Source: Prevotella sp. (lineage in GTDB: Bacteria > Bacteroidota > Bacteroidia > Bacteroidales > Bacteroidaceae). From it: DNA of 42,207 nt. Where the stretch lies: the NCBI GenBank assembly GCA_017470055.1, contig JAFUFD010000106.1, positions 1 through 42,207 of the forward strand. The letters are read 5' to 3'. Shown one piece after another: positions 641-21,047 of this stretch. The notes beneath the pieces are model-generated. The model saw only the letters and a list, made by a program, of their open reading frames with translations. It searched no databases and was not told the DNA's origin. Made by a program: the position numbers and the translations under genes. How positions within the stretch are numbered: the first letter of the stretch is position 1; the number at the start of each line of letters is the position of its first letter.

Positions 641-762
641 GCAAAGGTACGAAAAAGTGAGCACAATACAAAATAAAAACAAATATTTTTCATTTTTATT
701 GTCGAACGGAAGTACCTTCGACGCAGTCAAAGGTACGAAAAAGTGAGCACAATACAAAATAG
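641..762 (-). repeat. Promoter-bearing quasi-palindromic repeat, locus A (upstream of rpsF)
   Basis: Read on the minus strand, the stretch holds two direct copies of a complete promoter, each ending TACCTTTG. The proximal copy has its -7 box at 642-649 and TTTG at 669-672; the distal copy has 728-735 and 755-758. Both have exactly 19 nt between boxes and the same spacer, containing GTGCTCACTTTTTCG. Between the copies lies CGAAGGTACTTCCGTTC followed by an arm complementary, with one bulge, to the sequence around the proximal -33 box (ACAATA, AAAAT and AAAAA blocks). The same architecture recurs at 14765-14878, 20584-20699 and, without the distal promoter, at 20970-21047. Confidence 0.85.
642..672 (-). 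promoter_or_regulatory. Promoter of rpsF-rpsR
   Basis: The minus strand reads TTTG (672-669), 19 nt, then TACCTTTG (649-642), matching the Bacteroidales consensus TTTG-N19-TAnnTTTG. Transcription should start near 637, leaving a leader of roughly 40 nt before the rpsF ATG. A second identical promoter lies 86 bp upstream. Confidence 0.8.
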
Positions 763-773
763 AACATACAATT

Positions 774-1247
774 TCAATGCTGGAATGGTCTTTGCCTGAA
801 CTCAATCTCATATTCACGTCGAGACTTCCAGACTTCAAGTGTACCATACCACTCGCCCCATTGACACCTTATCAGATCAGGTCTGTTTCCTCGTGACAAC
901 TCCACGCCAAACTCCCCCAACCTTTCAATAACTCCCATGAGATTATAGTTGGAGCCTATGAGTATCATGCCTACCTTTTTACGATCCTCCAGTGCAGGGC
1001 ACAAATAGGCATAGCCATGCATCATCCCAGCATCAATATCAAAGAGAAGTTTTCCCGACCGTTTGCCAACATAGCGTGGCATGAAACCATATTCACCAAG
1101 AATCTGGACAGCCTTTTGGAAATCCTCAGCCTTCACGACCCGTGTAATCGCCTCCACGATGTCAGGTGCTACTACTACCTTCACCTGAGCACGGCAATGC
1201 GTTACGCACACAGCCATAACCATCAGCACTATCCATCCCTTCGTCAT
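774..1247 (-). CDS. Small exported protein of unknown function
   Basis: I do not recognise this protein. The chosen start is the ATG at 1247-1245, giving MTKGWIVLMVMAVCVTHCRAQ, a signal peptide with likely cleavage after CRA. An ATG 45 bp upstream is ruled out because it lies before the -7 box (1262-1269). The mature part, about 137 residues, has KVVVAPDIVEAITRVV, then a helix-turn with FQKAVQILGEYGFMPRYVGKR, and ends in charged strands. The pattern suggests a small alpha/beta periplasmic domain. Function is unknown. It is a transcription unit of its own, behind the terminator of the island operon (1330-1370). Confidence 0.7.
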   Translation of the reverse strand: MTKGWIVLMVMAVCVTHCRAQVKVVVAPDIVEAITRVVKAEDFQKAVQILGEYGFMPRYVGKRSGKLLFDIDAGMMHGYAYLCPALEDRKKVGMILIGSNYNLMGVIERLGEFGVELSRGNRPDLIRCQWGEWYGTLEVWKSRREYEIEFRQRPFQH

Positions 1248-1261
1248 TTGAAATCTTTTTG

Positions 1262-1269
1262 CAAAGATA
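1262..1269 (-). promoter_or_regulatory. -7 promoter box for the 774-1247 gene
   Basis: The minus strand reads TATCTTTG at 1269-1262, 15 nt before the ATG at 1247. A TTG lies about 20 nt further upstream. The short leader fixes the translation start. Confidence 0.65.
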
Positions 1270-1329
1270 CAATAAAAAGAGCAAACTAACAAGAAATCTG
1301 TTTCTCTTTTATAGCCCGACCTATAGTCT

Positions 1330-1370
1330 GGGAAAAAATAAGAGGTACTCCGATTGGAATACCTCTTATT
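1330..1370 (-). terminator. Rho-independent terminator closing the island operon
   Basis: On the minus strand a 15-bp stem is formed by 1370-1356 and 1351-1337 with a 4-nt loop (AATC) and one G-T pair, followed by a T run (1336-1333). It sits 33 bp after the stop of the 1403-3079 gene and closes the transcript of the lipoprotein cluster. Confidence 0.85.
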
Positions 1371-1402
1371 CTGTGATTACTCGACTTTAAGACTTCAAAT
1401 TA

Positions 1403-3079
1403 TTAGTTCCGTTTCCCGTGATAGATACTGATAATCTTCGCAGTCGGCTTGAAGTCCTCTGCTCGTCGAGGGTTGTCGGTATTAGGCAGGTCATCACTAT
1501 CCATGGTATAGACATAATCCTTTGATGTGGCTTCGACAACATTTTCGAAGTAAATCCGTTGCCAGTTCAGTTTGGGGTTCTTGCGGAACAACTCACGGAC
1601 AGAACTACCGACGTGGAAGCCATTGGTTGTTCTGATAAAAGAAGCACCTTCCCCGACAAGGAAAGAAACGATTTTGCCATCATCGACTCCAGCGCTAACA
1701 ATCTCTTTCCCGTTCTTTATAAATGTCACTCTTTCTTCCAAGACTTCCTCTGCTTCATCGTCATCCTCCATGCCCATCGAATATACCTTTTCATAACCTT
1801 TAAAATAGGTGAAGGTATCATATAGACCTGGAATTGTATTGGGAAGATATCTTACATCATCGCCTATACATATAGGTCCCAGTTTCCCGTTTCCCAACAC
1901 AAAAGTTTTCACTACGTTTGAAGTTTTATTCTTTTGAGATGCTGGGCTATTAAGGCTTAACAAGTACTTCCACCACCAATAGTTTACAAGTGTATTCTCG
2001 TTCAATCCATTAAGAGCCTTTGCAAACTCTGCCTCTGTCACAGCATCCAATGTCGGATCATACTCTATTCCATTCCATGGCTGTGGAGTCAGTTGCTGTC
2101 CTTTTACCCACTTCGCAATAACGCCTGAGATTTGAGCCACTTCAACAACGGTACCTCCATCTGACAATCTCACCTTCCGTAGTCCAATAGTACCCGCATT
2201 GTTTCCTTTCTCTGATATAACATCAAACACATAAACATTTCCTTCCTTTCTGGGATTATCCAACGTCCCTTCGAAGTCATCATTTCCTAAGAAATACAAA
2301 ATAGAACCCCATTCTGGAATATCGATACCGTTGAAGTCCTTCCTGCGATTAACGGTTATCTGGAGTTCCCGTTGGTTCTCACTTGATTCTTCTGGATAGA
2401 GAAACCAACTTCCTGATGGATATACCGCTTCAGAGAACACCTTAGCCGTGATTTCGAGTGGCTTCTGCTTTTTAGAAGGAGTCTCCTTACTCTGATTCTG
2501 GTTGTAATTATTTGATTGTGCCTGTTGCTGATTCGAACTTGCCTGTGCAGGTTGCTCTCCAGTATTATAGAACGACAGATAGTCACTCTGCGCAATTTGC
2601 CTTTGGAGTGTCATGTCAACCAAATAGATACGAGCATAATAAGTGTTTTGTCCTGGTAACGGATTAAGCGCATCAACATAGATGGCTTGCCATTGTCCAT
2701 TAAAGACTGTGCTTGGGTAAGTGCAGGTCAATTGATTTCCCTCTGATATCATATTGTTACCGTCAGCAAACTTGTGGTAAGTGCCTTGCGGTATCTCGAT
2801 AGCAAGAACTGGAACCAAATTATGCCCTTGCAACCCATTCACTGTCAATGTATAGTGAACCTGAAGCATTGTCCGTCCGTTACTTTGATCCTTTTGATCA
2901 TAAGTCAAACGCATATTAGAGAAATGTACAGAAGGCTGCACCTGTCGCTGCTGTGTATTCTGTTGTGAGTTATAAGTAAGCCCGCCCAACACGGCTTTTC
3001 CCAACTTCTTCAAGAATTGGGCATCGCAATTGATAGATGCGACAAAGCCCAATAATAGCATTAATAGTATTTTCTTCAT
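1403..3079 (-). CDS. Large exported protein of unknown function with Gln/Asn-rich linker
   Basis: Unrecognised 558-residue exported protein. A signal peptide (residues 1-20, ending NCDA) is followed by a beta-rich domain (about 45-175) with repeated hydrophobic/Thr alternation such as LQVHYTLTVNGLQGHNLVPVLAIEIPQG. A low-complexity Gln/Asn/Ser linker (about 176-205) leads to a second, longer domain with WGSILYFLGNDDFEGTL. Near the C-terminus are segments resembling the neighbouring lipoproteins, such as LGNGKLGPICIGDDVRYLP. The first part may be a ligand-binding or scaffolding beta domain, but this is inference from composition. It is the last gene of the minus-strand cluster, 52 bp after the next gene, and is followed by a strong terminator. 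Confidence 0.75.
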   Translation of the reverse strand: MKKILLMLLLGFVASINCDAQFLKKLGKAVLGGLTYNSQQNTQQRQVQPSVHFSNMRLTYDQKDQSNGRTMLQVHYTLTVNGLQGHNLVPVLAIEIPQGTYHKFADGNNMISEGNQLTCTYPSTVFNGQWQAIYVDALNPLPGQNTYYARIYLVDMTLQRQIAQSDYLSFYNTGEQPAQASSNQQQAQSNNYNQNQSKETPSKKQKPLEITAKVFSEAVYPSGSWFLYPEESSENQRELQITVNRRKDFNGIDIPEWGSILYFLGNDDFEGTLDNPRKEGNVYVFDVISEKGNNAGTIGLRKVRLSDGGTVVEVAQISGVIAKWVKGQQLTPQPWNGIEYDPTLDAVTEAEFAKALNGLNENTLVNYWWWKYLLSLNSPASQKNKTSNVVKTFVLGNGKLGPICIGDDVRYLPNTIPGLYDTFTYFKGYEKVYSMGMEDDDEAEEVLEERVTFIKNGKEIVSAGVDDGKIVSFLVGEGASFIRTTNGFHVGSSVRELFRKNPKLNWQRIYFENVVEATSKDYVYTMDSDDLPNTDNPRRAEDFKPTAKIISIYHGKRN

Positions 3080-3131
3080 ATTCTTTTCAATTTAATTATT
3101 AATCTCCATCAGTAGCACTAAGCCGATTCCT

Positions 3132-4328
3132 TCACCTACTTGTTCCTGTATCTTTAATCGTCATACCAACCTCATAGTCACCCGAGTCAAACATTCCGTA
3201 TGTATACCCAACACTTCCATATGGTAATTTCATTTCTTCTGCCCCATCATATAGTTTTTCCCATTTTCCGCCATAGAGAGCAGTCATCTCCTCCTTGAAT
3301 CTGTTGCAAAGATTAATAGCGGCTTCCTCAGATTCAACCATGTTGCCAAAAGAAACTGTATTCACACGATTACCTTCTGTGTTGATACTTATTTCTTGCA
3401 TCACGCCATTAACCCTACCTTTCAAAAATACCAAATCGTTATCTTCACTACTCCCACTACCTTTAGTAAATCCTCTCTGACGCAGTGCTTCGATAAATGG
3501 CTTTGGTTCTCCCCCAAGTTGAAGTCCTAGAAACTCCATATGTTTGTCTTCCTGTACCTCTTGCTCTTCATCTTTCTTTGCATTCTCTGGCTTAGATGTC
3601 AAACCATCTTTCACCCCTAAAAGGACCTTACCCTCTTCTGTCAAGAAACCTGTAATATCACCCATTGGTACGGTAATCGTATTCCAGAAATGACTACCAT
3701 ACAGATACAGCACCTTGCAACTATCCGCTATAGGGCACAAATAAGTATAATCCATCAGCCAACCTTCGTCGATGTCTTTCTGATCCTTATCACCATATTT
3801 TTGGATTAGTTTCATGAGATCATCTACAGGAACACTTGCAACCTCTGCATCTTCCATCAGATGTCCGTCAGACAGTCTGATTATTTTATAACACTCACTG
3901 GGAGCACCATTGCCAAAGACACCGTCAGTGACATGGAGGAATACCGCCTGGTCGTTTTGATACTCACACTCTACCATCAAGTCAAAAGCCAATGCACCAG
4001 CAGGATCATATTCTCCAGTGGTAATTGCCTTTTGAAAATAGTCGACAAGGTTCTTACAGACATCCTTCAAAGGTCCCTCGACGGGCTGTTTTAGTTCCTC
4101 TTCAACTTGCGATTCCTTGATGATGGTTCGGATTCCTTCTGCTACTCGATTCTGCACCTCACCCTCCCCGACTGGGATGTCAACAGAAAGTGTCATACCT
4201 GCGATACCTCCTTCGGGAGACGTAACACTCACCTGCTCATCAAACTTCTCAAACTGGATAGGGCTAAAACTATTGCCACCACATGCCGCTAACAAGCAGG
4301 CAATTCCGAATAATAATGTTTTTCTCAT
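3132..4328 (-). CDS. Lipoprotein with DUF3298-like domain plus a C-terminal Bacteroidales lipoprotein domain
   Basis: A 398-residue lipoprotein. Start is the ATG at 4328, giving MRKTLLFGIACLLAACGG with lipobox LAAC (Cys16); an upstream in-frame ATG at 4358 overlaps the -7 box and cannot be used. Residues about 30-235 match the paralogue at 5873-6595: PVGEG, GIRTIIKESQVEE, FLHVTDGVFGNGAPSECYKIIRLSDGHLM. The GA(H/P)-Y-x-I-x-LSDG layout resembles DUF3298, the RsiV/PdaC-type domain. A charged linker (KKDEEQEVQEDKH) leads to a second domain (MEFLGLQLGGEPKPFIEALRQRGF, EISINTEGNRVNTVSF) of a kind common in Bacteroidales lipoproteins. Function is unknown; family assignment is by eye. Confidence 0.75.
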   Translation of the reverse strand: MRKTLLFGIACLLAACGGNSFSPIQFEKFDEQVSVTSPEGGIAGMTLSVDIPVGEGEVQNRVAEGIRTIIKESQVEEELKQPVEGPLKDVCKNLVDYFQKAITTGEYDPAGALAFDLMVECEYQNDQAVFLHVTDGVFGNGAPSECYKIIRLSDGHLMEDAEVASVPVDDLMKLIQKYGDKDQKDIDEGWLMDYTYLCPIADSCKVLYLYGSHFWNTITVPMGDITGFLTEEGKVLLGVKDGLTSKPENAKKDEEQEVQEDKHMEFLGLQLGGEPKPFIEALRQRGFTKGSGSSEDNDLVFLKGRVNGVMQEISINTEGNRVNTVSFGNMVESEEAAINLCNRFKEEMTALYGGKWEKLYDGAEEMKLPYGSVGYTYGMFDSGDYEVGMTIKDTGTSR

Positions 4329-4355
4329 AATATAGCATGATTTTAGATTCAATTG

Positions 4356-4363
4356 CAAAGATA
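4356..4363 (-). promoter_or_regulatory. -7 promoter box for the 3132-4328 lipoprotein
   Basis: The minus strand reads TATCTTTG at 4363-4356, 28 nt upstream of the ATG at 4328. It abuts the stop codon of the small ORF at 4364-4465. Confidence 0.65.
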
Positions 4364-4465
4364 CTAATTATTTCTGATTATGCAAACATCTTGATATGTA
4401 TGTCTTCCCGGTAGAGGATTCAATATTGCCAATAAAGTCCATATTATTAAAAATGTTCTTTTCAT
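4364..4465 (-). CDS. Possible 33-residue secreted peptide or signal-peptide remnant
   Basis: A short ORF runs from ATG 4465-4463 to TAG 4366-4364: MKRTFLIIWTLLAILNPLPG then RHTYQDVCIIRNN. The first 20 residues look like a complete signal peptide and resemble the export signals of the adjacent genes; the mature part is only about 13 residues. It sits between two lipoprotein genes, and its stop touches the promoter of the next one. It could be a secreted peptide or, more likely, the surviving 5' end of a decayed lipoprotein gene. Too short to decide from sequence. Confidence 0.35.
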   Translation of the reverse strand: MKRTFLIIWTLLAILNPLPGRHTYQDVCIIRNN

Positions 4466-4475
4466 TGTCTTTAAT

Positions 4476-5207
4476 TTAATCGCCATTTTTCATCCAGTCC
4501 TTCATATTTTCTCTCACTTTATCGATGTACTCCTGGCGCATTTGATCACCTCTCTTTCTAATTTCCAAAGCCTTTTCATAAGTCCATCGTTCTATGACAG
4601 CCTTTGAAACATCGACAAGGAGAGGCAATCGATCTATCGACATACTCAGAAAAACACCTTTATGCAATATCTCGCCGTCTTTATATGGGTTGGGGATAAC
4701 TGTATCTGCGTAATCAACGACCTCCACAGAATCAGTATCAACCTCCAATCCATCTTTCAACGCAGTCTGAGGCTCATCTATACCGTCCTTAATATAGACG
4801 GCTTCCTCCCTATCATTATAAAAGACCACGCAAAGATGGTCAAGGCTTGCGAATGCTTTCTCTGCATCAGATATCTTGATGTCAAAGTTAAAGGGGAATG
4901 CAAGTAACATGTTTTTCTCGTAGCCCTCCAAAAAAACACCTTCATTTGAGACCACCTGTACTCCTAACCCATCATCTGCTTTTATAGATATGGTCTTTCC
5001 GCCCATCTCCTTTAAAAGTAATTGGGTCTCTTCATTTAGTTTTTCCAATAGATTCTCAGCCTCACGCTTTGTCTCACACGCATAAACCTTCACTTGACCA
5101 TCCATCACAAATTCTGCCACCTCTTTAAAAGGACGTGAATTGTTCGTACTGGCAAAGCATCCACATAACAGGAAAGCCGCCATTATAAAATACACACTTT
5201 TTCTCAT
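4476..5207 (-). CDS. Lipoprotein of unknown function
   Basis: Unrecognised 243-residue lipoprotein. MRKSVYFIMAAFLLCGCFASTNN gives a lipobox ending at Cys15 or Cys17. The mature protein is acidic and mixed alpha/beta, with an amphipathic helix (ETKREAENLLEKLNEETQLLLKEMGG), a strand-rich centre (FPFNFDIKISDAEKAFASLDHLCVVFYNDREEAVYIKDG) and a basic C-terminal helix (RKRGDQMRQEYIDKVRENMKDWMKNGD). It lies in the minus-strand lipoprotein cluster, 16 bp after the 5224-5838 gene, so the two are probably co-transcribed. No catalytic motif is visible. Confidence 0.7.
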   Translation of the reverse strand: MRKSVYFIMAAFLLCGCFASTNNSRPFKEVAEFVMDGQVKVYACETKREAENLLEKLNEETQLLLKEMGGKTISIKADDGLGVQVVSNEGVFLEGYEKNMLLAFPFNFDIKISDAEKAFASLDHLCVVFYNDREEAVYIKDGIDEPQTALKDGLEVDTDSVEVVDYADTVIPNPYKDGEILHKGVFLSMSIDRLPLLVDVSKAVIERWTYEKALEIRKRGDQMRQEYIDKVRENMKDWMKNGD

Positions 5208-5223
5208 ATCAATAAAACTTTAG

Positions 5224-5838
5224 TTAATAATACGATCCTCTAACTCTGCGTTCCCTTATATCATACACTTTCCTATCCACCATCTTCACATAGCCCAAAT
5301 GACGCCAGTATTTAACTTTGTCATGTTCTACAATCATTGGGGCTCGAAGATGTTTCCCATCAAAAGAGCCTGCCACTCCCGCATTTATTATCTTTCCGTC
5401 TTCTGTACAAAGGAAAAAGAACACACCGAAACTTTTCCACTCCTTCAATTGTTTTGCAAGACCTTCTGGGTATGACGGAACAAATTCCATAACAAAATTC
5501 AACGAGCCGTTTGTGGCAACCCAACTATCAATAACGACAGATTCTATTTCCATACCTTCAGAAACATTATCTTCCCTTATAGGAATTTTTTTACCTACAA
5601 CTTCCGAAGAATATTCTTGAAGTTCTTGTGCGATAGTTTGCCTGTTCATACTATAAATATTCAATTTCTCATAGGCATCCAACATATCACCAAAAATCCT
5701 TTTATAAGTGGGTTCCTCCGATGAAGACCTGGTTATAGATATGGATTCTTGCGATTCTGAAGCATTTTTCTGTTTACATCCACAAACGAGGGTCAGGCAT
5801 ACTAGTGCCAACAGGATTAAATGTACTTTCACTTTCAT
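5224..5838 (-). CDS. Lipoprotein of unknown function
   Basis: Unrecognised 204-residue lipoprotein: MKVKVHLILLALVCLTLVCGC with the lipobox Cys at 21, then a Ser/Glu-rich tether (KNASESQESISITRSSSEEP). The mature domain has a helical start (IFGDMLDAYEKLNIYSMNRQTIAQELQEYSSEV) and a beta-rich end with GKHLRAPMIVEHDKVKYWRH. That last segment resembles GKHLHSNMYVEDKEGDYWHR in the 6708-7169 lipoprotein, suggesting the two share a domain. No enzyme motif is visible. Confidence 0.68.
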   Translation of the reverse strand: MKVKVHLILLALVCLTLVCGCKQKNASESQESISITRSSSEEPTYKRIFGDMLDAYEKLNIYSMNRQTIAQELQEYSSEVVGKKIPIREDNVSEGMEIESVVIDSWVATNGSLNFVMEFVPSYPEGLAKQLKEWKSFGVFFFLCTEDGKIINAGVAGSFDGKHLRAPMIVEHDKVKYWRHLGYVKMVDRKVYDIRERRVRGSYY

Positions 5839-5872
5839 ATATTAAATCGAACTTGATTCCACATCCTAATAT

Positions 5873-6595
5873 TCATTTGCCAAAGCATTTCCTACCCTCT
5901 ACGGTGAGGAAGCGTTCTATTTCACTCATAGGAACGTCAAGGGTTTCCCAATCATGAATACCATATAAATATAGTACCTTGCATCTGCCTGCCGCAGGGC
6001 TAAGATAGACCTCATCCATCAAGAATGACTCATTAAAATCCTTTTGCTCCGCAGTTCCATATTTATTAATAAGCCTGACAAGATCTTCAAATTTGACATT
6101 GAACACTTCCTGCTCTCCCATTAACCTTCCATCTGAGACTCTGACTATCTTATAACTCTCAGAAGGTCCACCATTGCTATAGACGCCATCGGTGACATGA
6201 AAGAAGACAGCATAGTTGTTCTGATACGCTTTCTCTACCAGCAGTTCACAAGAGACACTACAACCAACATCGATGGTTCCTTTTCTGATGCCTGTAGGGA
6301 AATAAGTAGCCAGTGAATTAGCAATATTCCTGATAGGACCAGTCACAGGTCGTTTCATTACCTCAAGGACCATCGATTGCCTGATGATTTCCCTGATACC
6401 ATTATTAATTTTAGATTGGCGAGGACCTTCCCCAACAGGAATGTCAAACTTTAATGTCAGTCCTGCTTCTCCACCTTCTGGACATCTTGCTCCAGTAGTC
6501 CTTTTGTAAGGTTTGAACGTAACCTGCGCCTCACAATTGTTTGCGAATGCCATCATCAGGCAAGCAATAGAAATAAAAAATAAAGTTCTTCTCAT
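5873..6595 (-). CDS. Exported DUF3298-like protein, paralogue of the 3132-4328 lipoprotein
   Basis: A 240-residue exported protein. The start is taken at 6595 (MRRTLFFISIACLMMAFANNCEAQ) because the 8218 gene begins at the equivalent codon of almost identical DNA; a start at 6601 (MTM) is possible. The mature part aligns throughout with the first half of the 3132-4328 protein: PEGGEAGLTLKFDIPVGEG, GIREIIRQSMV, FHVTDGVYSNGGPSESYKIVRVSDGRLM, DEVYLSPAAGRCKVLYLYG. It lacks the second domain of that protein and the lipobox. A DUF3298-like (RsiV/PdaC-type) fold is my reading; the role is unknown. Confidence 0.72.
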   Translation of the reverse strand: MRRTLFFISIACLMMAFANNCEAQVTFKPYKRTTGARCPEGGEAGLTLKFDIPVGEGPRQSKINNGIREIIRQSMVLEVMKRPVTGPIRNIANSLATYFPTGIRKGTIDVGCSVSCELLVEKAYQNNYAVFFHVTDGVYSNGGPSESYKIVRVSDGRLMGEQEVFNVKFEDLVRLINKYGTAEQKDFNESFLMDEVYLSPAAGRCKVLYLYGIHDWETLDVPMSEIERFLTVEGRKCFGK

Positions 6596-6707
6596 AGTCA
6601 TTTAGCAATTAATTTACTAAGTTTCGCAAATGATGGTACACATTGAGGATGTACCTTTTTGACACGCCTTCAATAGTATTAGCCTTACTTATTCACCCTC
6701 CTTGATA

Positions 6708-7169
6708 TTATTTTAAGTCAATGTAATAAAAAAAGAATCTATCCTTTTCTGAATCATAGTTAGTGTAGAACCAATCATCTTCTTCTATACTCTTTGAGAC
6801 GTTAGCATACGAGAGACCGTCAAGTTCTGGGTCTACTCTAAACGACCGACTACGATGCCAGTAATCCCCCTCTTTATCTTCAACATACATATTGGAGTGC
6901 AAATGCTTCCCATCAGAAACGGCTTTGTGAACTCTGACGTGACTGGTGGTATAAGAGGACATACTCATAAAGGTGCGTTCGGTTCTTGTCTCTGCACAGA
7001 AACTTTGCAAAGCCGGCTTGCGAATCTTTTCAAGGATTTCTTGGTTGCTGGTATGGTACAACTGACTGATGGTGTAACCCTGTTTGCCGTCACCTTTCTT
7101 GTCGCAGCCCACGAGTACTATAGTTATAGCACATAGCAGGGCTAATATTGTAGTCTTCATCTTTTTCAT
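6708..7169 (-). CDS. Small lipoprotein of unknown function
   Basis: Unrecognised 153-residue lipoprotein: MKKMKTTILALLCAITIVLVGCDKKGDG, lipobox VGC with Cys22. An ATG nine bases downstream (MKTTIL) is an alternative start. The mature part is rich in aromatic and charged residues, with SYTTSHVRVHKAVSDGKHLHSNMYVEDKEGDYWHRSRSFRV in the middle; its GKHLxxxMxVE..YW stretch resembles the 5224-5838 lipoprotein. The start overlaps the stop of the preceding gene by 4 bp (7166-7169), so the two are likely translationally coupled. Confidence 0.68.
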   Translation of the reverse strand: MKKMKTTILALLCAITIVLVGCDKKGDGKQGYTISQLYHTSNQEILEKIRKPALQSFCAETRTERTFMSMSSYTTSHVRVHKAVSDGKHLHSNMYVEDKEGDYWHRSRSFRVDPELDGLSYANVSKSIEEDDWFYTNYDSEKDRFFFYYIDLK

Positions 7170-7816
7170 TGTCTGTATTGGTTTCTTTTCGTTTCTTTTA
7201 GTCGTTCTGCTCTTTCATCCCTTCCGTCCACAAGAATAATTTTAGATATTCGTTCAAAGTCGTCAGCGTTATATGTCTCTATACACATATCAAAGGGTAG
7301 AATCATTTCTGCTCCTTTGACATAGATCGTTCTCTTGTTTTCTATTCGATAGTCGTCTTTATGGCGCAGATTGTCGAAATTGGTGATGTAAGCACACGCC
7401 TCATTCCCGTCCATACCTATTGCCTGTAATAGACTGGCACCATAACCAACAGGTATCATATTGCTGATTTCATCTTCGCATATATCCTTGGTCAAACGAA
7501 TTTTGCAAAGCATTCTCACGCTGAAGTGACGGTTATCGAACTCAACCCCGTAGACCTCGGCAGGCCATACTACTTCAATCCCGTCAATCTCAGATGTCGT
7601 GGGGATACTATATCCCTCCAACTCAATGTTAAACCGCTGCCCCTCTACATACATCTGTTTCTCGATGAATGCCCAGTGACCTTCAAGGCTGCCTCGTGGT
7701 GCACCCTCCAGTTTCTTCACCTCTTCTGTAAGGTCTTTCAAAGTTGCCATTTTGCGGTCAGAACCACAGGACGCACATATCATTGCCATCAGAATGGCTG
7801 TTATTATCTTTTTCAT
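7166..7816 (-). CDS. Lipoprotein of unknown function
   Basis: Unrecognised 216-residue lipoprotein: MKKIITAILMAMICASCGSDRK, lipobox ASC with Cys17. The mature protein begins with a helix (ATLKDLTEEVKKLEGAPRGSLEGHWAFIEKQMYVEG) and continues as a mainly beta domain with VVWPAEVYGVEFDNRHFSVRMLCKI. It overlaps the next gene by 4 bp and lies 18 bp after the 7835-8218 gene, so the three form a tight block. No catalytic residues stand out. Confidence 0.68.
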   Translation of the reverse strand: MKKIITAILMAMICASCGSDRKMATLKDLTEEVKKLEGAPRGSLEGHWAFIEKQMYVEGQRFNIELEGYSIPTTSEIDGIEVVWPAEVYGVEFDNRHFSVRMLCKIRLTKDICEDEISNMIPVGYGASLLQAIGMDGNEACAYITNFDNLRHKDDYRIENKRTIYVKGAEMILPFDMCIETYNADDFERISKIILVDGRDERAERLKETKRNQYRQ

Positions 7817-7834
7817 ATCTGCTACGAATGATAT

Positions 7835-8218
7835 TTATATCCAGTTGGGAAATATCTTCCATCGGCCGCTGGGTGTTTTGTCTAAGACAAAGTAATCTTT
7901 TACCTCTTTTCCGCCTCTATTTACTACTATGGCTGTAATAACCACACTATTAGACTCACTGCTTTCTTTGGTGGTTACGACTCTCAGTAGATTATCGGGC
8001 ATCCTCCTATAAAGACTTTCATTCGCCAATGCTGCTTTGCAGCGTTGGACTGCCTCCCAGTCCTTGAGATCAAAGTAGCGGTTGACATCATCGATGTTCT
8101 TGTTATGCAGTGCCTCAATCCCTTTCTTCAGCACCTCTTCGGGACTGGATGGATTGTTTGAGCCACAGCCTGCCATCATCAGGCAAGCAATAGAAATAAA
8201 AAATAAAGTTCTTTTCAT
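7835..8218 (-). CDS. DUF4878-like small lipoprotein
   Basis: A 127-residue lipoprotein: MKRTLFFISIACLMMAGCGSNNP, lipobox AGC with Cys18. The mature part, SPEEVLKKGIEALHNKNIDDVNRYFDLKDW and then a beta sheet ending FVLDKTPSGRWKIFPNWI, fits the NTF2-like DUF4878 layout (one helix pair followed by a curved sheet), common among Bacteroidales lipoproteins. The DNA encoding the signal peptide is nearly identical to that at 6550-6595, although the mature proteins are unrelated. Ligand and role are unknown. Confidence 0.72.
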   Translation of the reverse strand: MKRTLFFISIACLMMAGCGSNNPSSPEEVLKKGIEALHNKNIDDVNRYFDLKDWEAVQRCKAALANESLYRRMPDNLLRVVTTKESSESNSVVITAIVVNRGGKEVKDYFVLDKTPSGRWKIFPNWI

Positions 8219-8285
8219 AGTCTTTGATTTTATTTATTCATAATTAGTGTCCCTATTTTGCTAATGTTCTCATATCCATATTAAT

Positions 8286-9830
8286 CTAATATAAGAATAT
8301 GACAGGTATGGATATAATACTCCAAATAATCACCAAAATGAGAGTTAGCAGCCAAACACATAAGAATCCTATCATATAGACGAACAGGCAATAGAGCACT
8401 TTTGTCAACAAAGAACTTTTACCTAATTTTGTAGAATATGCAAAAATAGCAATGCTAGCAACAGGTATAATCAGAAATTGTGCTAATGACTCAAACATTG
8501 TGGTTTCATACAAGGAACTCCCGAAGAGAATAGTTAAGATTATTAGTGCGGCACATGCAATAAACCAAGTGGTAATTGCTTTACGGGCTATCAAGGCATT
8601 ACTCTCCATCGTGTTGAGAAATAGTTTATGCTCAATGCGTTCTACAACACTCATACATTTGTTATGAATATATGCAAATAAACGCAAAAGGCTGTATGCA
8701 ACGCCAGTTCCTAAGAGTAAAAGGAAAAAGGCTGCTGTGAAGTATTTTCTAATACTTTCTCCATTACCTTCTCCCAACTTATGGTCGAAGCCATCTGTAA
8801 GTATGTAAGTAAAAGCAAATACTGCAAAAAGAGGGATGATAGTTGAAACTACCCTATGGATCTTTCGCTTGTAGAATACACCCATACTTATAATACTGTA
8901 GATGGGGGCTACTATCATGATTAATCCTATGATTATTGTAAAGACCATATCACTTTTGTCTGTTTGTAGCATCTCGTTGCCAGAACTCATGAAGTAATGT
9001 AGAACTTGCCAATGTGACAATTCCCCTTGCCATCCATGTAGAAATGGAACGTAAAAGCATACATAAATTAAATAGAGGGACAGGAGAATGCCTCCAATGC
9101 GTATTACCCAATCTATGGTTTTCTTTATATCATAGGTCTGGACCATCAAACACATACTATTGCTTGTCATAGAGGAAAATATTGCAAATCTTTTGCGTGT
9201 CGTTATAATAGACAAGACAGAGTTTGTATTAGTTGACCCAATATTTGTTTCAACCGAATGCTGTGGCTCTATATTAGTTGACTCAACACTTGTTTCAGCC
9301 GAATGCCGTGGCTCTATATTAGTTGACTCTACACTTGTTTCAACCGAATGCTGTGGCTCTATATTAGTTGACCCAATATTTGTTTCAGCCGAATGCTGTG
9401 GCTCTTTTTCTGTTGGCCATAACAGTCTAATGATTATGAGTGCGATAGCAGAAAACAAATAAATATAAAAACCCACTTTATATTCTATCAGTTTATCAAG
9501 GCTGAAGAAAGACGATGATAATTGATGATTTAATATATACAAGAAAAAGAGTAATGCTCCTATGGGGGCATAAGCACCAAAATCTAACTTGTTTTTCTTA
9601 TTTGCCACTAATACCAATAGGTTTCCAACAGGTATCGCTATCATCAAGAAGAAGCCAAAAAGGAATGACCCTTCAGACCCTTCATTACTTTTAAGAGACA
9701 TTGTTGTTAATTCCCAAAATGAGACTGTTTGCTTTCCCATAATTGAGAATGTTGGCATAAACAAGGCGGCAATCATTAATATATTAGCCACGATAGCACC
9801 TGTTCGGTGAGAGTTTTGTGATTCTTCCAT
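8286..9830 (-). CDS. Chimeric polytopic membrane protein with a 15-residue tandem repeat linker
   Basis: Unrecognised 514-residue inner-membrane protein. Residues 1-140 hold about four hydrophobic segments. Residues 143-202 are four 15-residue repeats of the type EPQHSAETNIGSTNI. Residues 212-232 (TRKRFAIFSSMTSNSMCLMVQTY) match the signal peptide of the 10984-11865 protein, MKRFAIFAFMASNSMCLMAQTY, but the initiator Met is lost. Residues 240-514 carry a further six or so membrane segments. The arrangement suggests two genes joined in frame: an N-terminal membrane module, a repeat linker, and a second membrane protein whose old signal peptide is now internal. No enzyme motif is visible. It precedes the 7835-8218 gene by 67 bp. 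Confidence 0.72.
   Translation of the reverse strand: MEESQNSHRTGAIVANILMIAALFMPTFSIMGKQTVSFWELTTMSLKSNEGSEGSFLFGFFLMIAIPVGNLLVLVANKKNKLDFGAYAPIGALLFFLYILNHQLSSSFFSLDKLIEYKVGFYIYLFSAIALIIIRLLWPTEKEPQHSAETNIGSTNIEPQHSVETSVESTNIEPRHSAETSVESTNIEPQHSVETNIGSTNTNSVLSIITTRKRFAIFSSMTSNSMCLMVQTYDIKKTIDWVIRIGGILLSLYLIYVCFYVPFLHGWQGELSHWQVLHYFMSSGNEMLQTDKSDMVFTIIIGLIMIVAPIYSIISMGVFYKRKIHRVVSTIIPLFAVFAFTYILTDGFDHKLGEGNGESIRKYFTAAFFLLLLGTGVAYSLLRLFAYIHNKCMSVVERIEHKLFLNTMESNALIARKAITTWFIACAALIILTILFGSSLYETTMFESLAQFLIIPVASIAIFAYSTKLGKSSLLTKVLYCLFVYMIGFLCVWLLTLILVIIWSIISIPVIFLY
9135..9197 (-). other. Relic signal-peptide coding segment inside the 8286-9830 gene
   Basis: About 60 bp here is close to identical with 11800-11865, which encodes the signal peptide of the polytopic protein at 10984. 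The ATG of that gene corresponds here to a non-start codon, so the segment reads through as internal residues 212-232. Confidence 0.7.
9225..9404 (-). repeat. Four-copy 45-bp in-frame tandem repeat
   Basis: Four contiguous 45-bp units encode EPQHSAETNIGSTNI, EPQHSVETSVESTNI, EPRHSAETSVESTNI and EPQHSVETNIGSTNT. Units 1 and 4 share NIGS, while 2 and 3 share SVES. The repeat forms a hydrophilic linker between the two membrane halves of the 8286-9830 protein. Unit number could change by slippage without breaking the frame. Confidence 0.9.
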
Positions 9831-9843
9831 AAATCTTCAATTA

Positions 9844-11865: not shown

Positions 11866-11955
11866 AGTCTTATCGTTTTTAGTTATAATGATGGCAACAA
11901 AGTTAAATCTTTTCATCATACTACACAATAGCGGAAAACCGCCATTTTGTTGCTT

Positions 11956-11963
11956 CAAATTTA
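11956..11963 (-). promoter_or_regulatory. Possible -7 box at the head of the minus-strand island
   Basis: The minus strand reads TAAATTTG at 11963-11956, a match to TAnnTTTG about 90 nt before the ATG at 11865. No clear -33 box is seen at the expected distance, so this is tentative. Confidence 0.35.
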
Positions 11964-12046
11964 CTGGGTTGCCAAATAGTCTCGTAAGTTAACACTAAAC
12001 ACGTAAGATTTATGGATAAACTGATCATTATTTGAGAGAAAATAAT

Positions 12047-12054
12047 TATCTTTG
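12047..12054 (+). promoter_or_regulatory. -7 promoter box of the histidine kinase gene
   Basis: TATCTTTG matches the Bacteroidales -7 consensus and lies about 100 nt before the ATG at 12155. The -33 box is not obvious. The leader contains three 15-bp direct repeats. Confidence 0.55.
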
Positions 12055-12060
12055 CAACCG

Positions 12061-12102
12061 GCATTAACTTAATACGCATTAAATTAACACGCATTAGATA
12101 CC
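12061..12102 (+). repeat. Three 15-bp direct repeats in the kinase leader
   Basis: GCATTAACTTAATAC (12061-12075), GCATTAAATTAACAC (12076-12090) and a shorter GCATTAGATACC (12091-12102) run head to tail just downstream of the -7 box. Regular spacing next to a promoter suggests an operator, for instance for autoregulation, but this is inference. Confidence 0.65.
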
Positions 12103-12154
12103 GTTACACAGATAGGCTTGTCAATGGAAGATATGTAAAAACCTGCGATAGAAT

Positions 12155-13720
12155 ATGGCAAGGAGATTATGCTTTTTATGGTTAATCCTGTTCTCTATAA
12201 ATGTATGGGGAGCGAATGACAGTATCCTTGTAAAAGGTATTGCACAGGCAAGCAGAATGGCTTTGCGTAACCAGAATGACTCCGCTATCGCACTGGTTGA
12301 CAGTCTGCTGCCTTACGCAGTACAAAGGAAGGCTTTAGTACAGGAGGCATCGCTTCATTACATTCTCGCTACATGCTATGATAACAAAAAAGAGAGACAG
12401 AAAGCCATACAAGAGTATATAACTGTCATGATTATTGCCGACCAAGCGGATTTTGTCAACAACGCCGTCAAGAATCCTTCTCTATACAATTTGATGATGC
12501 CCACCTTTGTTCAGACTGCTGTATTGACAAGAGACTTAGGCTGGAAGGAGCAGAGTGTCAATTGTTCCAAGACGGGTATTACCTGGGCTATGAGATGTCC
12601 CCAAAAAGAACTCGTAACTTCAAGTATGCCTGTGTTTGGGTCAATCTTGATAATGAATAAAGAATATGAAATAGCGTATGAACCTCTAAAACAGGCTTAT
12701 GATTACGCCATTCAAATAGGTGACACAGATAACGCTCTCGGAATTGTCATGTCACTTATTGAGGCTGAGGAGCATATACACCATGTATCTCCAGAGAAGA
12801 ATCCATGGATAAAAGTAGGAGAACGTCTAATGCCGAAGACCAAGGAAGACAAGATATCGCTGGCTTTCTTGAGTACTGCCCATAACTCAATGATCAAAGA
12901 ACTGGAGCGACGAGACTCTGACATGATAAGAAACAATACAGGAACAAGAGATACTACACGCACCAAAACACCTCAGATACTACAGGCAAGAAACGACTCC
13001 ATACAGCATCATATCCAGTATGTTCATGTGAGGAATGTGCGGATTGTCAAAATCGGTCTGACCATCATCGCTCTCCTTCTTTTGTCTTTCGGTATATACA
13101 CCCTGTGGCAACGTCATGTACGGAGAAAGCGAGAGACCCAACGCTATATTGAAGGACTGGAACAGGAGCGTAACCGCTTGGCGAAAGAATTGCATGACGG
13201 TGTAAGCAATCAGCTCTTGGCTGTCGAGATGAAACTGAACGAGGAGGGCACAAAGGAGCAGGCAATACAGATGCTCAATGAAAGCCGTGAGCAGGTTCGG
13301 CGTGTAAGCCATGAACTAATGCCACCAGAGTTCTCTTATGCCACCCTCGACGAGGTGATATCCCACTATGTTCTTGAACTTGATGAGGTCAATCATTGTG
13401 ACATCAGTTGCCATCTGAATCCACCTGATGCCGACTGGAGCACTATCCCACCCCAAGAGGCATTGGAGATATACCGTATCGTGCAAGAAGCCATTGGCAA
13501 TGCCCTTAAACATTCTGGTGCTACAACCATTGCTGTGGGTATGCACAAAACAGGACAGGAGACGGCAATCACCATCAGTGACAATGGGACTTCAGATGAG
13601 AAGACCACCACATCAGGTATTGGCATACGTACCATGAAGCAGCGTGCCCAACTCATTGGAGCCACTTTGGAATTCAGGAAAAACAAATATGGACATGTAG
13701 TAAAACTCTATATTGAGTGA
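12155..13720 (+). CDS. Sensor histidine kinase, HisKA_3/NarX type, with periplasmic helical-repeat sensor
   Basis: A 521-residue membrane histidine kinase. Signal peptide 1-19; residues about 25-255 are TPR-like helical repeats (periplasmic sensor); one membrane span at about 299-318 (KIGLTIIALLLLSFGIYTLW); a short coiled stretch; then HisKA_3 with ERNRLAKELHDGVSNQLLAVE, His347 being the phosphorylation site. The HATPase domain shows the N box EAIGNALKHS (Asn449), DNG (476-478) and GIGIRTMKQRAQLIG. This is the TPR-HisKA_3 layout common in Bacteroidales. The partner is the NarL-type regulator at 14100. The signal sensed is unknown. It is divergent from the lipoprotein island, which makes the island a possible target. 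Confidence 0.92.
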   Translation: MARRLCFLWLILFSINVWGANDSILVKGIAQASRMALRNQNDSAIALVDSLLPYAVQRKALVQEASLHYILATCYDNKKERQKAIQEYITVMIIADQADFVNNAVKNPSLYNLMMPTFVQTAVLTRDLGWKEQSVNCSKTGITWAMRCPQKELVTSSMPVFGSILIMNKEYEIAYEPLKQAYDYAIQIGDTDNALGIVMSLIEAEEHIHHVSPEKNPWIKVGERLMPKTKEDKISLAFLSTAHNSMIKELERRDSDMIRNNTGTRDTTRTKTPQILQARNDSIQHHIQYVHVRNVRIVKIGLTIIALLLLSFGIYTLWQRHVRRKRETQRYIEGLEQERNRLAKELHDGVSNQLLAVEMKLNEEGTKEQAIQMLNESREQVRRVSHELMPPEFSYATLDEVISHYVLELDEVNHCDISCHLNPPDADWSTIPPQEALEIYRIVQEAIGNALKHSGATTIAVGMHKTGQETAITISDNGTSDEKTTTSGIGIRTMKQRAQLIGATLEFRKNKYGHVVKLYIE

Positions 13721-13739
13721 AAATCACGGGAATCCACTA

Positions 13740-13769
13740 TTGCAAATTCGCCAACTTCTTATAATTTTG
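13740..13769 (+). promoter_or_regulatory. Promoter upstream of the response regulator
   Basis: TTG at 13740-13742, then 19 nt, then TAATTTTG at 13762-13769 fits the Bacteroidales consensus. It lies just behind the kinase gene, so the response regulator, and the small ORF before it, can be transcribed independently of the kinase. Confidence 0.6.
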
Positions 13770-13797
13770 TAGCCAAAATAAAAATAACGGCTCTCTG

Positions 13798-14088
13798 ATG
13801 AACGATATTTGCGCAAAAATCCGTATATTTGCAAACCGTTTCCTTTTCGGGGATGGTAGACATAATATGTTGAGGAAGCGTTATAGGCTTATCTCCAAGT
13901 TGATGAATCTCGACAACTCATCAGTGAAGAATTATGGAATAAGTATAGCGTTCTCACCCTATGAATGGATATATACTTTCAGTGTATATACAGGCAAAGG
14001 GCGTGGAGCCGTTATTTATTATCCTAATTCTGGGCTGTCGAGAGCCTATCAACTGGATAATGGCGGTTACGCGCCTTTCTGTATATAA
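13798..14088 (+). CDS. Doubtful small ORF between kinase and response regulator
   Basis: A 96-residue ORF of no recognised family, starting about 28 nt after a good promoter and ending 11 nt before the response regulator ATG. The first 20 residues overlap promoter-like DNA (TATATTTG at 13823-13830), and an internal ATG at 13867 would give 73 residues. The C-terminal half (EWIYTFSVYTGKGRGAVIYYPNSG then LDNGGYAPFCI) looks more protein-like than the N-terminus. It could be a small cytosolic protein, a fragment of a lost gene, or leader sequence. The 378-bp kinase-regulator gap holds nothing else clear. Confidence 0.35.
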   Translation: MNDICAKIRIFANRFLFGDGRHNMLRKRYRLISKLMNLDNSSVKNYGISIAFSPYEWIYTFSVYTGKGRGAVIYYPNSGLSRAYQLDNGGYAPFCI

Positions 14089-14099
14089 TATAATAAGGT

Positions 14100-14759
14100 A
14101 TGTGTAGCGATATCAGAAAATATAAATTAGAAGACCTGTCGATAGCCATCGTTGATGACCATGAGGTAGTACTTGAGGGTATGAAAAGTTATATGGAGAA
14201 GAATCACATAGAACGTATCGAGACCTTCAAGACGGCTCTGTCGTTACTGGACAGGATGTCTGCCAAACACTTCGATATCTATATTGTGGACATCGAATTG
14301 CCAGACATGGAGGGGGCTAAGTTGATTGACGAGATACGGAATCTTCATCCCCATGCTAAGATTATAGTGAACACCATACACGAAGAGATGTGGGTGGTAC
14401 GAAAGATGGCTGAGAAGGAAGTCGATGGCGTGATGTATAAGTCTGGACAATTAGACCAACTGATTGATGCCGTTATTGTAGTATCAGAAGGCGGGCAGTA
14501 TTTCTGTAGCAAATTCAGGAAGATGAATAACAGGAATAAACTTCAGAATGAAGTGCTTAGCAGACGTGAGATGGATGTTCTACAAGCAATAGCCCAGGGG
14601 CACTCGACTAAGGAAATAGCGAAGATGTTGTATATCTCAGAGAACACCGTGGAGACTCATCGGCAGAACTTGTTCGCAAAACTAAAAGCACACAATATGG
14701 CTGACCTTATTATCAAGGCAATCTCATGTGGCTATATTAATCCTAATAACATAAAATAA
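14100..14759 (+). CDS. NarL/LuxR-family response regulator
   Basis: A 219-residue two-component response regulator. Receiver domain about 13-130 with acidic pair D19-D20, phospho-acceptor D64 (YIVDIELPDMEG), T92 and K114 (MYKSG). The LuxR-type HTH spans about 152-215: LSRREMDVLQAIAQGHSTKEIAKML followed by ENTVETHRQNLFAKL, the DNA-recognition helix. Length and layout are standard. It follows its presumed cognate kinase; the targets are unknown, with the adjacent island and the kinase leader repeats being candidates. Confidence 0.93.
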   Translation: MCSDIRKYKLEDLSIAIVDDHEVVLEGMKSYMEKNHIERIETFKTALSLLDRMSAKHFDIYIVDIELPDMEGAKLIDEIRNLHPHAKIIVNTIHEEMWVVRKMAEKEVDGVMYKSGQLDQLIDAVIVVSEGGQYFCSKFRKMNNRNKLQNEVLSRREMDVLQAIAQGHSTKEIAKMLYISENTVETHRQNLFAKLKAHNMADLIIKAISCGYINPNNIK

Positions 14760-14764
14760 AATAC

Positions 14765-14878
14765 TTTTCTGTTCTCGCTTAATCGAAATTTTTGTACCTT
14801 TGGACTGTCGTCCGAAGGTACTCACGCTCGGAAAATTGCAAAATTATTTGCATTTTCGCTCGCTTAATCGTATCTTTG
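14765..14878 (+). repeat. Promoter-bearing quasi-palindromic repeat, locus B (upstream of the 58-aa membrane protein)
   Basis: A distal promoter-like copy (TTTTCTG, then CTCGCTTAATCG, ending TACCTTTG at 14795-14802) is followed by the hairpin TACCTTTGGAC-TGTC-GTCCGAAGGTA, then CACGCTC and an inner stem (GAAAATTGCAAA against TTTGCATTTTC, one bulge), and the proximal promoter, TTTG 14847-14850, 20 nt, TATCTTTG 14871-14878. The spacer contains GCTCGCTTAATCG. The distal copy has a few extra bases before its -7 box and is probably inactive. Same architecture as loci A and C. Confidence 0.8.
14847..14878 (+). promoter_or_regulatory. Promoter of the 58-residue membrane protein
   Basis: TTTG at 14847-14850, 20 nt, TATCTTTG at 14871-14878; ATG follows at 14899. 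It forms the proximal arm of repeat locus B. Confidence 0.75.
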
Positions 14879-20563: not shown

Positions 20564-20583
20564 TGTTCTATTTTATTTGGCGA

Positions 20584-20615
20584 CAAAGGTACGATTAAGT
20601 GAGCAGAAAACCAAA
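20584..20615 (-). promoter_or_regulatory. Proximal promoter of the engB operon
   Basis: The minus strand reads TTTG (20615-20612), 20 nt, TACCTTTG (20591-20584), 21 nt before the engB ATG. It is the proximal copy of repeat locus C. Confidence 0.75.
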
Positions 20616-20699
20616 AGAATTTTGAGTTTTCTTGAACGTGAGTACCTTCGACCAGCAGGGTCAAAGGTACGATTAAGTGAGCAGAAAACCAAATTTATT
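20584..20699 (-). repeat. Promoter-bearing quasi-palindromic repeat, locus C (upstream of engB)
   Basis: Two direct promoter copies on the minus strand: TACCTTTG at 20584-20591 and 20662-20669, each with TTTG 20 nt upstream and the spacer TTTTCTGCTCACTTAATCG. Between them are the hairpin TACCTTTGACC-CTGCT-GGTCGAAGGTA and the segment CTCACGTTCAAGAAAAC, whose AGAAAAC pairs with the GTTTTCT upstream of the proximal spacer. Outer sequences match loci A, B and D; the inner arm is specific to this locus. Confidence 0.85.
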
Positions 20700-20767
20700 T
20701 GCATTTTTTCGAATGTCACCACTGCCGCCTAAGTATAAATGTACTGTCCCTTTTCAGTAGACACATC

Positions 20768-20872
20768 AATTGTCTGCTGACATGAAGTCAGCAAGCCTGT
20801 TGACTTAGAGTCAGCAAGGTTGTCGACTGGAGTCAGCAACCCTGTTGACTGGAGTCGACAGGCGATTAGGAT
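20768..20872. repeat. Tandem array of four related small hairpins
   Basis: Four consecutive units of about 20-25 bp, each an imperfect palindrome built on GTTGACT/AGTCAGC: TGCTGAC-ATGAA-GTCAGCA; TGTTGACT-TAG-AGTCAGCA; TTGTCGACT-GG-AGTCAGCAA; TGTTGACT-GG-AGTCGACA. Spacers are short. This is too regular to be chance and is not a CRISPR array (no unique spacers of 30 bp or so). It lies in the 510-bp engB-pyrB intergenic region. Role unknown. Confidence 0.75.
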
Positions 20873-20930
20873 GCTTCTTTCATATGAAAACGACGGCACT
20901 TCACATCGAATATAACGGCACTTACAACTG

Positions 20931-20969
20931 CAAAGGATGGCATCTGTCACTCGTAGATGCCATCCTTTG
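20931..20969. other. Perfect 15-bp inverted repeat upstream of pyrB
   Basis: CAAAGGATGGCATCT (20931-20945) and AGATGCCATCCTTTG (20955-20969) are perfectly complementary around a 9-nt loop. There is no T run after it on either strand, so it is not an ordinary intrinsic terminator. It occupies the place that the distal promoter copy takes in loci A-C and abuts TTCGAAGGTAC of locus D. Confidence 0.85.
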
Positions 20970-21047
20970 TTCGAAGGTACTTACGCTCAACAAATCAAAG
21001 AAAAAACAACTTTTTCTTTGATTTGTGCTCACTTATTCGTACCTTTG
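20970..21047 (+). repeat. Promoter-bearing quasi-palindromic repeat, locus D (upstream of pyrB)
   Basis: TTCGAAGGTACTTACGCTCA is followed by a long inner stem: AAATCAAAGAAAAA pairs perfectly with TTTTTCTTTGATTT around ACAAC. Then comes the spacer GTGCTCACTTATTCG and TACCTTTG (21040-21047). The whole element is a quasi-palindrome of about 78 bp whose right arm is the pyrB promoter. There is a single promoter copy here, unlike loci A-C. Confidence 0.85.
21017..21047 (+). promoter_or_regulatory. Promoter of pyrB-pyrI
   Basis: TTTG at 21017-21020, 19 nt, TACCTTTG at 21040-21047: exact Bacteroidales consensus, 28 nt before the pyrB ATG at 21075. It lies inside repeat locus D. Confidence 0.8.

Follow-up and report, generated by a model that had tools for sequence, protein, structure and literature searches.

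Positions 1 to 42,207 of the Prevotella sp. contig JAFUFD010000106.1 (assembly GCA_017470055.1), which we refer to as the window, raise the question of why four unlinked promoters share a nearly invariant spacer directly before the -7 box. The open reading frames (ORFs) that follow them encode a membrane protein of 58 amino acids (aa) and three proteins which we take to be the products of rpsF, engB and pyrB. A first-pass annotation had offered two explanations, either a common regulator or sigma factor that reads the spacer of growth-linked genes or a small mobile promoter cassette that has been copied around the genome. Our comparisons favour the second, and the sites are on balance probably copies of a promoter cassette, itself non-autonomous, for which recombination at the -7 box would be the means of spread and would leave the gene with a promoter. 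The units of the window fit the housekeeping promoter consensus of Bacteroidetes (TTTG at -33 and TAnnTTTG at -7) and are predicted to be promoters from their sequence.

The four sites were found as they had been described. The motif GCTCRCTTWWTCGTAYCTTTG (21 nucleotides, nt), which holds the spacer and the -7 box, occurs six times exactly in the window and seven times at up to three mismatches, compared with a mean of 0.01 over 100 dinucleotide shuffles. The spacer was seen nowhere else in the window except at one three-mismatch site at 1262, which agrees, at the level of a motif scan rather than a promoter-by-promoter inspection, with the earlier statement that ordinary promoters of the window lack it. 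In the genome of the window (G000 in our numbering; 3.39 Mb, 125 contigs, estimated contamination 6.84%), 19 exact matches and 65 at up to three mismatches were observed while the reversed-pattern control gave none, so that the spacer is commoner than chance genome-wide. The motif is not confined there to four sites derived from one duplication but sits before many unrelated genes. This genome has 252 promoters of the form TTTG-N18-20-TAYCTTTG against 4 in the control. Among the 100 of these that were listed, the rpsF promoter and that of the second window site included, about a quarter, as judged by eye, carry the conserved spacer, and in several its place is taken by a spacer of a second class, CTCRATTTGCAC. 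The second class was seen before TAYCTTTG at C8:99611, C8:116312, C16:19255 and C30:161311.

The motif noticed first is the right end of a larger, hairpin-rich unit of 75-90 nt. This unit consists of a left block (CGAAGGTACTCNCGYTCG), a palindrome termed inverted repeat 2 (IR2), the spacer GCTCRCTTWWTCG and the -7 box TAYCTTTG. IR2 spans the -33 region, where it begins directly after the left block and ends directly before GCTC, and the distance between the left and right blocks is 26-47 nt. The upstream block that had been reported as common to the window sites (CGAAGGTACTYMCGYTC) was found at precisely these four, with 0.34 expected at up to three mismatches, but it is not a feature of all family copies since the left block stands ahead of the motif, at the same tolerance, in 127 of 222 collected sites. 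The letters of IR2 vary among copies while the pairing is kept: in 115 distinct copies the outer 6 nt were paired in 0.93 of cells, compared with 0.59 (maximum 0.63) when partners were exchanged. A strong palindrome ending at the GCTC anchor was observed in 28% of 151 sites with both spacer and left block, in 13% of 117 spacer-only sites and in 5% of 103 other promoters. In a comparison with miniature inverted-repeat transposable elements (MITEs), the ends of the unit, CGAAGGTAC and GTACCTTTG, were seen to form 9-nt imperfect inverted repeats, and no parent insertion sequence was found for them.

Units were found single, doubled or tripled. Where they abut, the -7 box of the upstream promoter (P1) pairs with the left block of the next unit, the promoter of which we call P2, to form a junction hairpin (IR1) with the same two sequences, GTACCTTTG and CGAAGGTAC, as its arms. 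A P1 -7 box with at most one mismatch was observed just upstream of the left block in 89 of 141 full units, against 2 of 141 in the control, and was exact in 47 of those 89. The pairs that extend IR1 are also conserved (0.94, 0.90 and 0.79, compared with 0.63, 0.53 and 0.45 with partners exchanged; 82-84 junctions), and the P1 box alternates with its partner between TACC/GGTA (50 of 88) and TATC/GATA (19 of 88). At one position facing TTTG, the left arm has G in 68 of 88 junctions, T in 20 and A in none; an A would create a -7 box on the other strand, and therefore an antisense promoter appears to be avoided. The first-pass annotation, whose spacer and promoter are confirmed, had missed the co-variation of the two hairpins, and no other feature of the unit is as informative as these.

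Doublets are present in many genomes, mostly 73-89 nt apart with a few at about 110 or 160 nt, and triplets were found at L121 and at engB in the sister genome G236. In the window, the rpsF and engB sites each hold two promoters in tandem, at distances of 86 and 78 nt respectively, the copies being identical over 32-34 nt within a site and different between sites. Four near-identical units were also noticed within 3 kb among genes without a named function (G000, C90:72622-75578). The two IR1 hairpins that were folded, at rpsF and engB, are uninterrupted stems. Loops of the form c(TNC)g or c(TNNC)g occur in 37 of 76 foldable junctions, and 12 of 88 junctions have no stem. On the bottom strand these loops become d(cGNAg) and d(cGNNAg), and DNA minihairpins of these types are unusually stable. 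The bottom-strand minihairpin was nevertheless not upheld as the recognised form, as DNA folding prefers the top strand in 58 of 88 junctions and the bottom strand in 25, and other Bacteroidales families have loops of other kinds, so that either strand may be the one recognised.

Hairpins at these positions might instead act in RNA, as an attenuator, terminator or insulator ahead of P2 in transcripts from P1 or from the upstream gene. IR2 does form a hairpin with a T-rich 3' arm adjoining the promoter, and T-G pairs, which RNA would accept, are also accepted in the top strand of IR1 (68 of 88). However, the IR2 stems are AT-rich and weak, and the left arm of IR1 contains the P1 -7 box, which by established promoter geometry would place it outside the P1 transcript. 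Covariance models from Rfam gave four matches over the whole window at E up to 5, none of them at the unit sites and only one, a tRNA, above its gathering score; a known RNA family at these sites was accordingly rejected, and an RNA-level element of any kind seems to us very improbable.

Several comparisons indicate that units have been copied and that orthologous promoters differ by whole units. In G000, 11 pairs of units at different loci share at least 26 of 28 IR2 letters (60 sites, four paralogous loci dropped), where the average over 300 pair-preserving shuffles was 0.01 and no shuffle gave more than 1, and such near-identical units before unrelated genes point to copying. At gyrA, the unit of G000 is also present in the sister genome G234, in which the -7 box of this unit is followed by 159 bp, amounting to two whole units, ahead of the native leader. 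Identity between the two genomes extends to 49 of 55 alignment columns in the old unit and to 50 of 60 in the leader. The extra DNA is flanked on both sides by a -7 box (GTACCTTTA and GTACCTTTG), an arrangement in which a target site duplication of the MITE kind is indistinguishable from joining at the shared box. This locus was read from the raw sequences with pairwise checks because the MAFFT alignment misplaced the tandem copies. At dxs, where the upstream gene is conserved in three sister genomes, G236 has one unit and G234 two near-identical units, G000 has one unit preceded by a different kind of P1, and G207 carries an independent doublet. The G000 P1 at this locus is a promoter of the CTCRATTTGCAC class. 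The unit was found within three mismatches at dxs in 2 of 20 relatives; that of G236 lies beyond this cut-off and was read by eye. A gene that we take to be dgt has one unit in G000 and two in G075 in a partial comparison. The pairing of IR2 is kept at both pyrB and dxs even though its letters are entirely different from one relative to another, and in the pyrB orthologue of L206 a promoter resembling that of its relatives is followed by a degenerate unit. Judged from the sequences, the differences at gyrA, dxs and dgt involve whole units with the -7 box as their boundary.

The same differences could in principle arise with no dedicated mobility, from slippage, gene conversion and illegitimate recombination among similar promoters, with selection keeping those that are strong housekeeping promoters. 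The frequent identity of doublet copies would fit such an origin, as would the wholly different IR2 of orthologous pyrB and dxs promoters, the borders of the unit at a -7 box that is common to most promoters, and the lack of a transposase or integrase match among the 16 ORFs scanned in the insertion described below. It leaves unexplained why IR1 and IR2 remain paired despite the change of letters and why a similar left block and order of parts recur in other Bacteroidales families, and we consider it unlikely.

The genes downstream of the units bear on the alternative of a regulator. An ORF was found downstream at 208 of the 222 collected sites, at a median of 27 nt from the -7 box. These 208 ORFs fall into 162 clusters, the largest having four members; doublets are counted twice here and some two-member clusters are one doublet. 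On named contigs, 105 of 112 sites are spanned by an ORF of 100 aa or more or have one no further than 300 nt away, and one of the other seven precedes tRNA-Val. The downstream genes look like a broad housekeeping sample and no narrow regulon, and, judged by their N-termini, presumably include gyrA, rpsF, metK, lysS, EF-P, purD, trmD and hflX. A dedicated sigma factor or regulator that reads the spacer, with selection for its binding and with the palindromes as operators or insulators, would account for 13 nt being conserved far beyond what promoter function requires, for the position before genes and for the spacer variants that other families have of their own. The breadth of the clusters speaks against it, as do IR2 letters that vary, unlike those of an operator, and the copying to unrelated genes. 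Furthermore, the orthologues of a regulon would be expected to carry the site across species, whereas at up to three mismatches no unit was found at rpsF in 21 loci of 20 relatives (one locus having only 68 nt upstream) or at the gene of L052 in 14 of 14 loci, in addition to the few at dxs. The growth-linked regulator of the first-pass annotation is thus unsupported, and we regard it as decidedly unlikely. In the rpsF relatives the sequence that follows the -7 box is kept although the unit is absent, and a gain of the unit would be the simpler reading.

If the sites are a spreading promoter cassette, as we favour, it would join an existing promoter at the 3' end of the -7 box. The resident -7 box would become P1 while that of the cassette would be joined to the native leader, so that the gene retains a promoter, with P2 presumably as the active start. 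Repeated entry would build tandem arrays. The arriving left end would pair with the resident -7 box to give IR1, in which the letters could drift with the pairing kept. A recombinase may recognise the hairpins as folded single-stranded or cruciform DNA, where IR1 would be the structural recognition site for joining at the -7 box and would work like an integron attC site. The invariance of the spacer would be due mainly to shared descent and to the need to remain a promoter.

A number of observations weigh against such a cassette. The differences at gyrA, dxs and dgt could be deletions between repeats and not insertions. IR1 is not strictly maintained, because 42 of the 89 P1 boxes carry one mismatch and T-to-C changes in P1 are often uncompensated in the left arm (9 of 88), and units without a left block are less palindromic. 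The position of 105 of 112 sites before genes would also be expected from plain selection. Much of the evidence comes from metagenome assemblies, and the contamination estimate of G000 was given above. In addition, no mobilising enzyme was found: the Y1 transposase model Y1_Tnp (PF01797) had no match at E 0.001 in the carriers G000, G075, G234, G078, G185 and G190, other recombinase families not being sought. Y1_Tnp was present in 16 of the 38 genomes searched, several of which are incomplete, and other carriers are among these 16. In the six carriers that gave no match, a Y1 transposase is unlikely to mobilise the units, and mobilisation of the REPIN/RAYT or IS200 type was rejected on this ground.

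The rpsF unit and that of the second site face outward from an AT-rich insertion of 14.2 kb. Homology with G234 and G236, which have 35 bp between the two aligned blocks at this place, halts at 654/656 and restarts at 14868/14870, so that each end of the insertion is no more than about 6 nt away from the -7 box of one of the two units, a proximity that counts in favour of the cassette. The guanine-plus-cytosine (GC) content of the insertion is 0.403, compared with 0.508 on its right. Eleven of 16 scanned ORFs had no Pfam match, those above the cut-off being to a Band-7 protein, a histidine kinase and a response regulator, and no transposase or integrase was matched among the 16. PADLOC gave no defence match for ten of the proteins except weak ones to the response regulator. 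We take the insertion as real despite the contamination estimate, because an assembly error could produce it only through two misjoins, both of which left the ancestral neighbours in order. Two further features were noticed within it, a 45-nt tandem repeat at 9182-9451, inside an ORF, and two 55-nt stretches (6548-6602 and 8171-8225), 96% identical, at the starts of two ORFs. An independent insert of 6.2 kb (L409 4701-10880; GC 0.391) lies in G236 between engB, with its unit triplet, and pyrB. By eye, its ORFs include a PIN-like toxin-antitoxin pair and a metallo-beta-lactamase-like protein.

Units were rejected as paired ends of islands in general. Among neighbouring units 1-20 kb apart in G000, G254 and G234, 13 pairs face outward and 14 inward, and islands are not the rule because of this balance, which also counts against the proposed cassette. 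One of eight further outward intervals resembles the insertion (G254 C19, 2.8 kb, GC 0.355 compared with 0.454 and 0.473). The seven others show no clear drop in GC over their whole length, C62 having a stretch of 0.32-0.36 near one end. The DNA upstream was more than 5 GC points poorer at 27 of 64 full units and at 11 of 45 other promoters (one-sided Fisher p 0.043; counts back-computed from rounded fractions), and the opposite direction was observed at 6 of 64 and 4 of 45. When all units were compared with other promoters, p was 0.09, 0.14 and 0.027 at 800, 1300 and 2500 nt, so the lower GC behind units is suggestive only.

The motif is not confined to the window's own family of Bacteroidales. 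A scan of named genomes gave at least 118 stretches with it; among the matches listed, 79 of 80 titles name Bacteroidales and one an uncultured bacterium, and many come from the rumen or other ruminant gut. The strict pattern was found in 35 of 201 genomes of the family and in 3 of 13 of the genus, the window's own genome included. This patchiness was not retained as a sign of recent invasion, being partly a drift of the consensus, since a relaxed pattern finds 30-96 sites in six of six relatives (controls 0-2). Most of 237 genomes of the order are near background at up to three mismatches. The motif does occur in genomes of other families, with 23 sites in G399 (control 0), 16 in G392 (control 2), 14 in G465, 10 in G445 and 9 each in G344 and G366 (controls 0 each). 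Twenty stretches from G392, G399, G488, G465 and G366 were examined by eye. G392, G399 and G488 supplied 15 of them, of which 13 have the same order of parts with a left block near CGAAGATACTTTCACTCG; G465 and G366 supplied the other five, which show greater divergence or are incomplete.

Units are also present on viral contigs, where 13 stretches hold the exact motif and 8 of these have the left block and P1. Several of the contigs (L178-L190) exceed 100 kb and have units beside ParA-like, DnaC-like and replication-initiation genes. Eight of ten proteins from five of the stretches were matched, including ParA, DnaC-like, replication-initiation and DNA-ligase families. Some of these contigs may be phage-plasmids, and they are possible carriers of units between genomes. 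Among annotated plasmids (72,556 records) and phages (50,697 records), the engB region (20584-20700, minus strand) had no match in distant mode at E 0.01. The mobile promoter cassette first suggested gains support from the viral units, the near-identical units at unrelated genes and the whole-unit differences at orthologous promoters.

The units resemble several known systems in part. The R' box of integron attC sites has a GTT core, which is absent from the IR1 arms. IR1 was not classed as attC because of this different core and the uninterrupted stems of the two hairpins folded, in which the extrahelical bases and unpaired central spacer of attC are not seen. Integron arrays grow by insertion at a short core, and attC hairpins retain their structure through changes of letters; it is the bottom strand of attC that folds, and that of aadA1 (attCaadA1) has a terminal 5'-GAA loop (PMC2727003). 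IR1 is similar in its conserved pairing and variable letters, and its bottom strand would often have a loop like this GAA, but the cassettes here carry a promoter and no gene, and their core is the -7 box. REPIN/RAYT elements likewise exist as many short, intergenic, hairpin-forming and non-autonomous copies per genome (PMC8049555), whereas the present units are promoters at a fixed promoter position and a Y1 transposase is unmatched in six carriers. Correia/NEMIS and YPAL elements are also short, non-coding and palindromic; Correia elements hold putative promoters, and YPAL contains inverted repeats and goes into targets that lie near dyads (PMC2229807). The units described here differ in having no TA termini, a border -7 box that would be rebuilt by insertion, and tandem stacking. 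PINSR is a dispersed non-coding Prevotella repeat of 188 bp with more than 170 copies, confined by polymerase chain reaction to the P. intermedia/nigrescens group (PMC4755523), and is set apart from its description by size and host range. No description of the element was found in the titles and abstract openings of the literature on mobile promoters, Prevotella or Bacteroidetes promoters and palindromic repeats, among which few subscription papers and preprints were covered. Putative mobile promoters are reportedly near-identical promoter segments before unrelated genes; unlike them, the present element has definite limits, a pair of hairpins that co-vary and a joining point that is always the same.

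The features of the window are listed in Table 1. The engB ORF has GTPase domains by Pfam and the 58-aa protein a DUF3784 match below the cut-off; the four downstream genes are in place as first annotated. A palindrome upstream of the engB P1 folds no better than shuffles (z 0.4), and no P1 -7 box was recognised by eye upstream of the pyrB unit. Repeats of the GTTGACT/GTCGAC/GTCAGCA kind were noticed behind units at two unrelated G000 loci, at 20770-20880 of the window and upstream in L003.

Table 1. Unit parts, insertion and downstream ORFs in the window (gene names as we take them; folds are of DNA, energies in kcal/mol with z-scores).
Feature	Coordinates	Strand	Basis or remark
rpsF unit, right block (spacer and -7 box, P2)	642..662	-	exact motif; sequence after -7 box kept in relatives without unit
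rpsF unit, palindrome IR2 over -33 region	663..702	-	fold -6.1, z -2.3; family covariation
rpsF unit, left block CGAAGGTACTTCCGTTCG	703..720	-	block match
rpsF junction hairpin IR1, P1 -7 box paired with left block	712..736	-	fold -7.6, z -3.8; covariation
rpsF upstream promoter copy P1	728..748	-	exact motif; 34-nt identity with P2
AT-rich 14.2-kb insertion between outward-facing rpsF and site 2 units	655..14867	.	not present in G234 or G236
Site 2 junction hairpin IR1, GTACCTTTGGAC-TGTC-GTCCGAAGGTAC	14794..14821	+	read from sequence; family covariation
Site 2 left block	14813..14830	+	block match
Site 2 palindrome IR2	14831..14857	+	fold -6.8, z -2.7
Site 2 right block with -7 box, before 58-aa gene	14858..14878	+	motif; G234/G236 homology resumes 14868/14870
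engB unit, right block (P2)	20584..20604	-	motif match
engB unit, palindrome IR2	20605..20632	-	fold of 20605-20633 -7.5, z -3.7
engB unit, left block	20633..20650	-	block match
engB junction hairpin IR1	20642..20670	-	fold -10, z -4.7
engB upstream promoter copy P1	20662..20682	-	motif match
pyrB unit, left block	20972..20989	+	block match
pyrB unit, palindrome IR2, 16 bp perfect stem	20990..21026	+	fold -14, z -6.8
pyrB unit, right block	21027..21047	+	motif match
ORF downstream of rpsF site	250-594	-	
ORF downstream of site 2	14899-15075	+	58 aa
ORF downstream of engB site	19961-20563	-	
ORF downstream of pyrB site	21075-22022	+	

A broader proposal, which we put forward tentatively as possible though not probable, is that Bacteroidales have a hairpin-recognising recombination with the -7 box as its core, an "integron of promoters". 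It would move promoter-only cassettes into the promoters of essential genes, and sometimes whole AT-rich islands with an outward-facing cassette at either end, and the genes would stay active because every insertion rebuilds the promoter. If a cassette does spread in this way, about 60 housekeeping promoters in G000 would be copies of it and would not have evolved independently. Motif searches in these genomes can also take descent within a repeat family for a regulon. Among gut Bacteroidales, where the units are best seen in rumen Prevotella, such a system would rewire housekeeping expression and open safe harbours for foreign DNA, as an insertion that regenerates the promoter offers foreign DNA a concrete route to a place between essential genes that would remain expressed.

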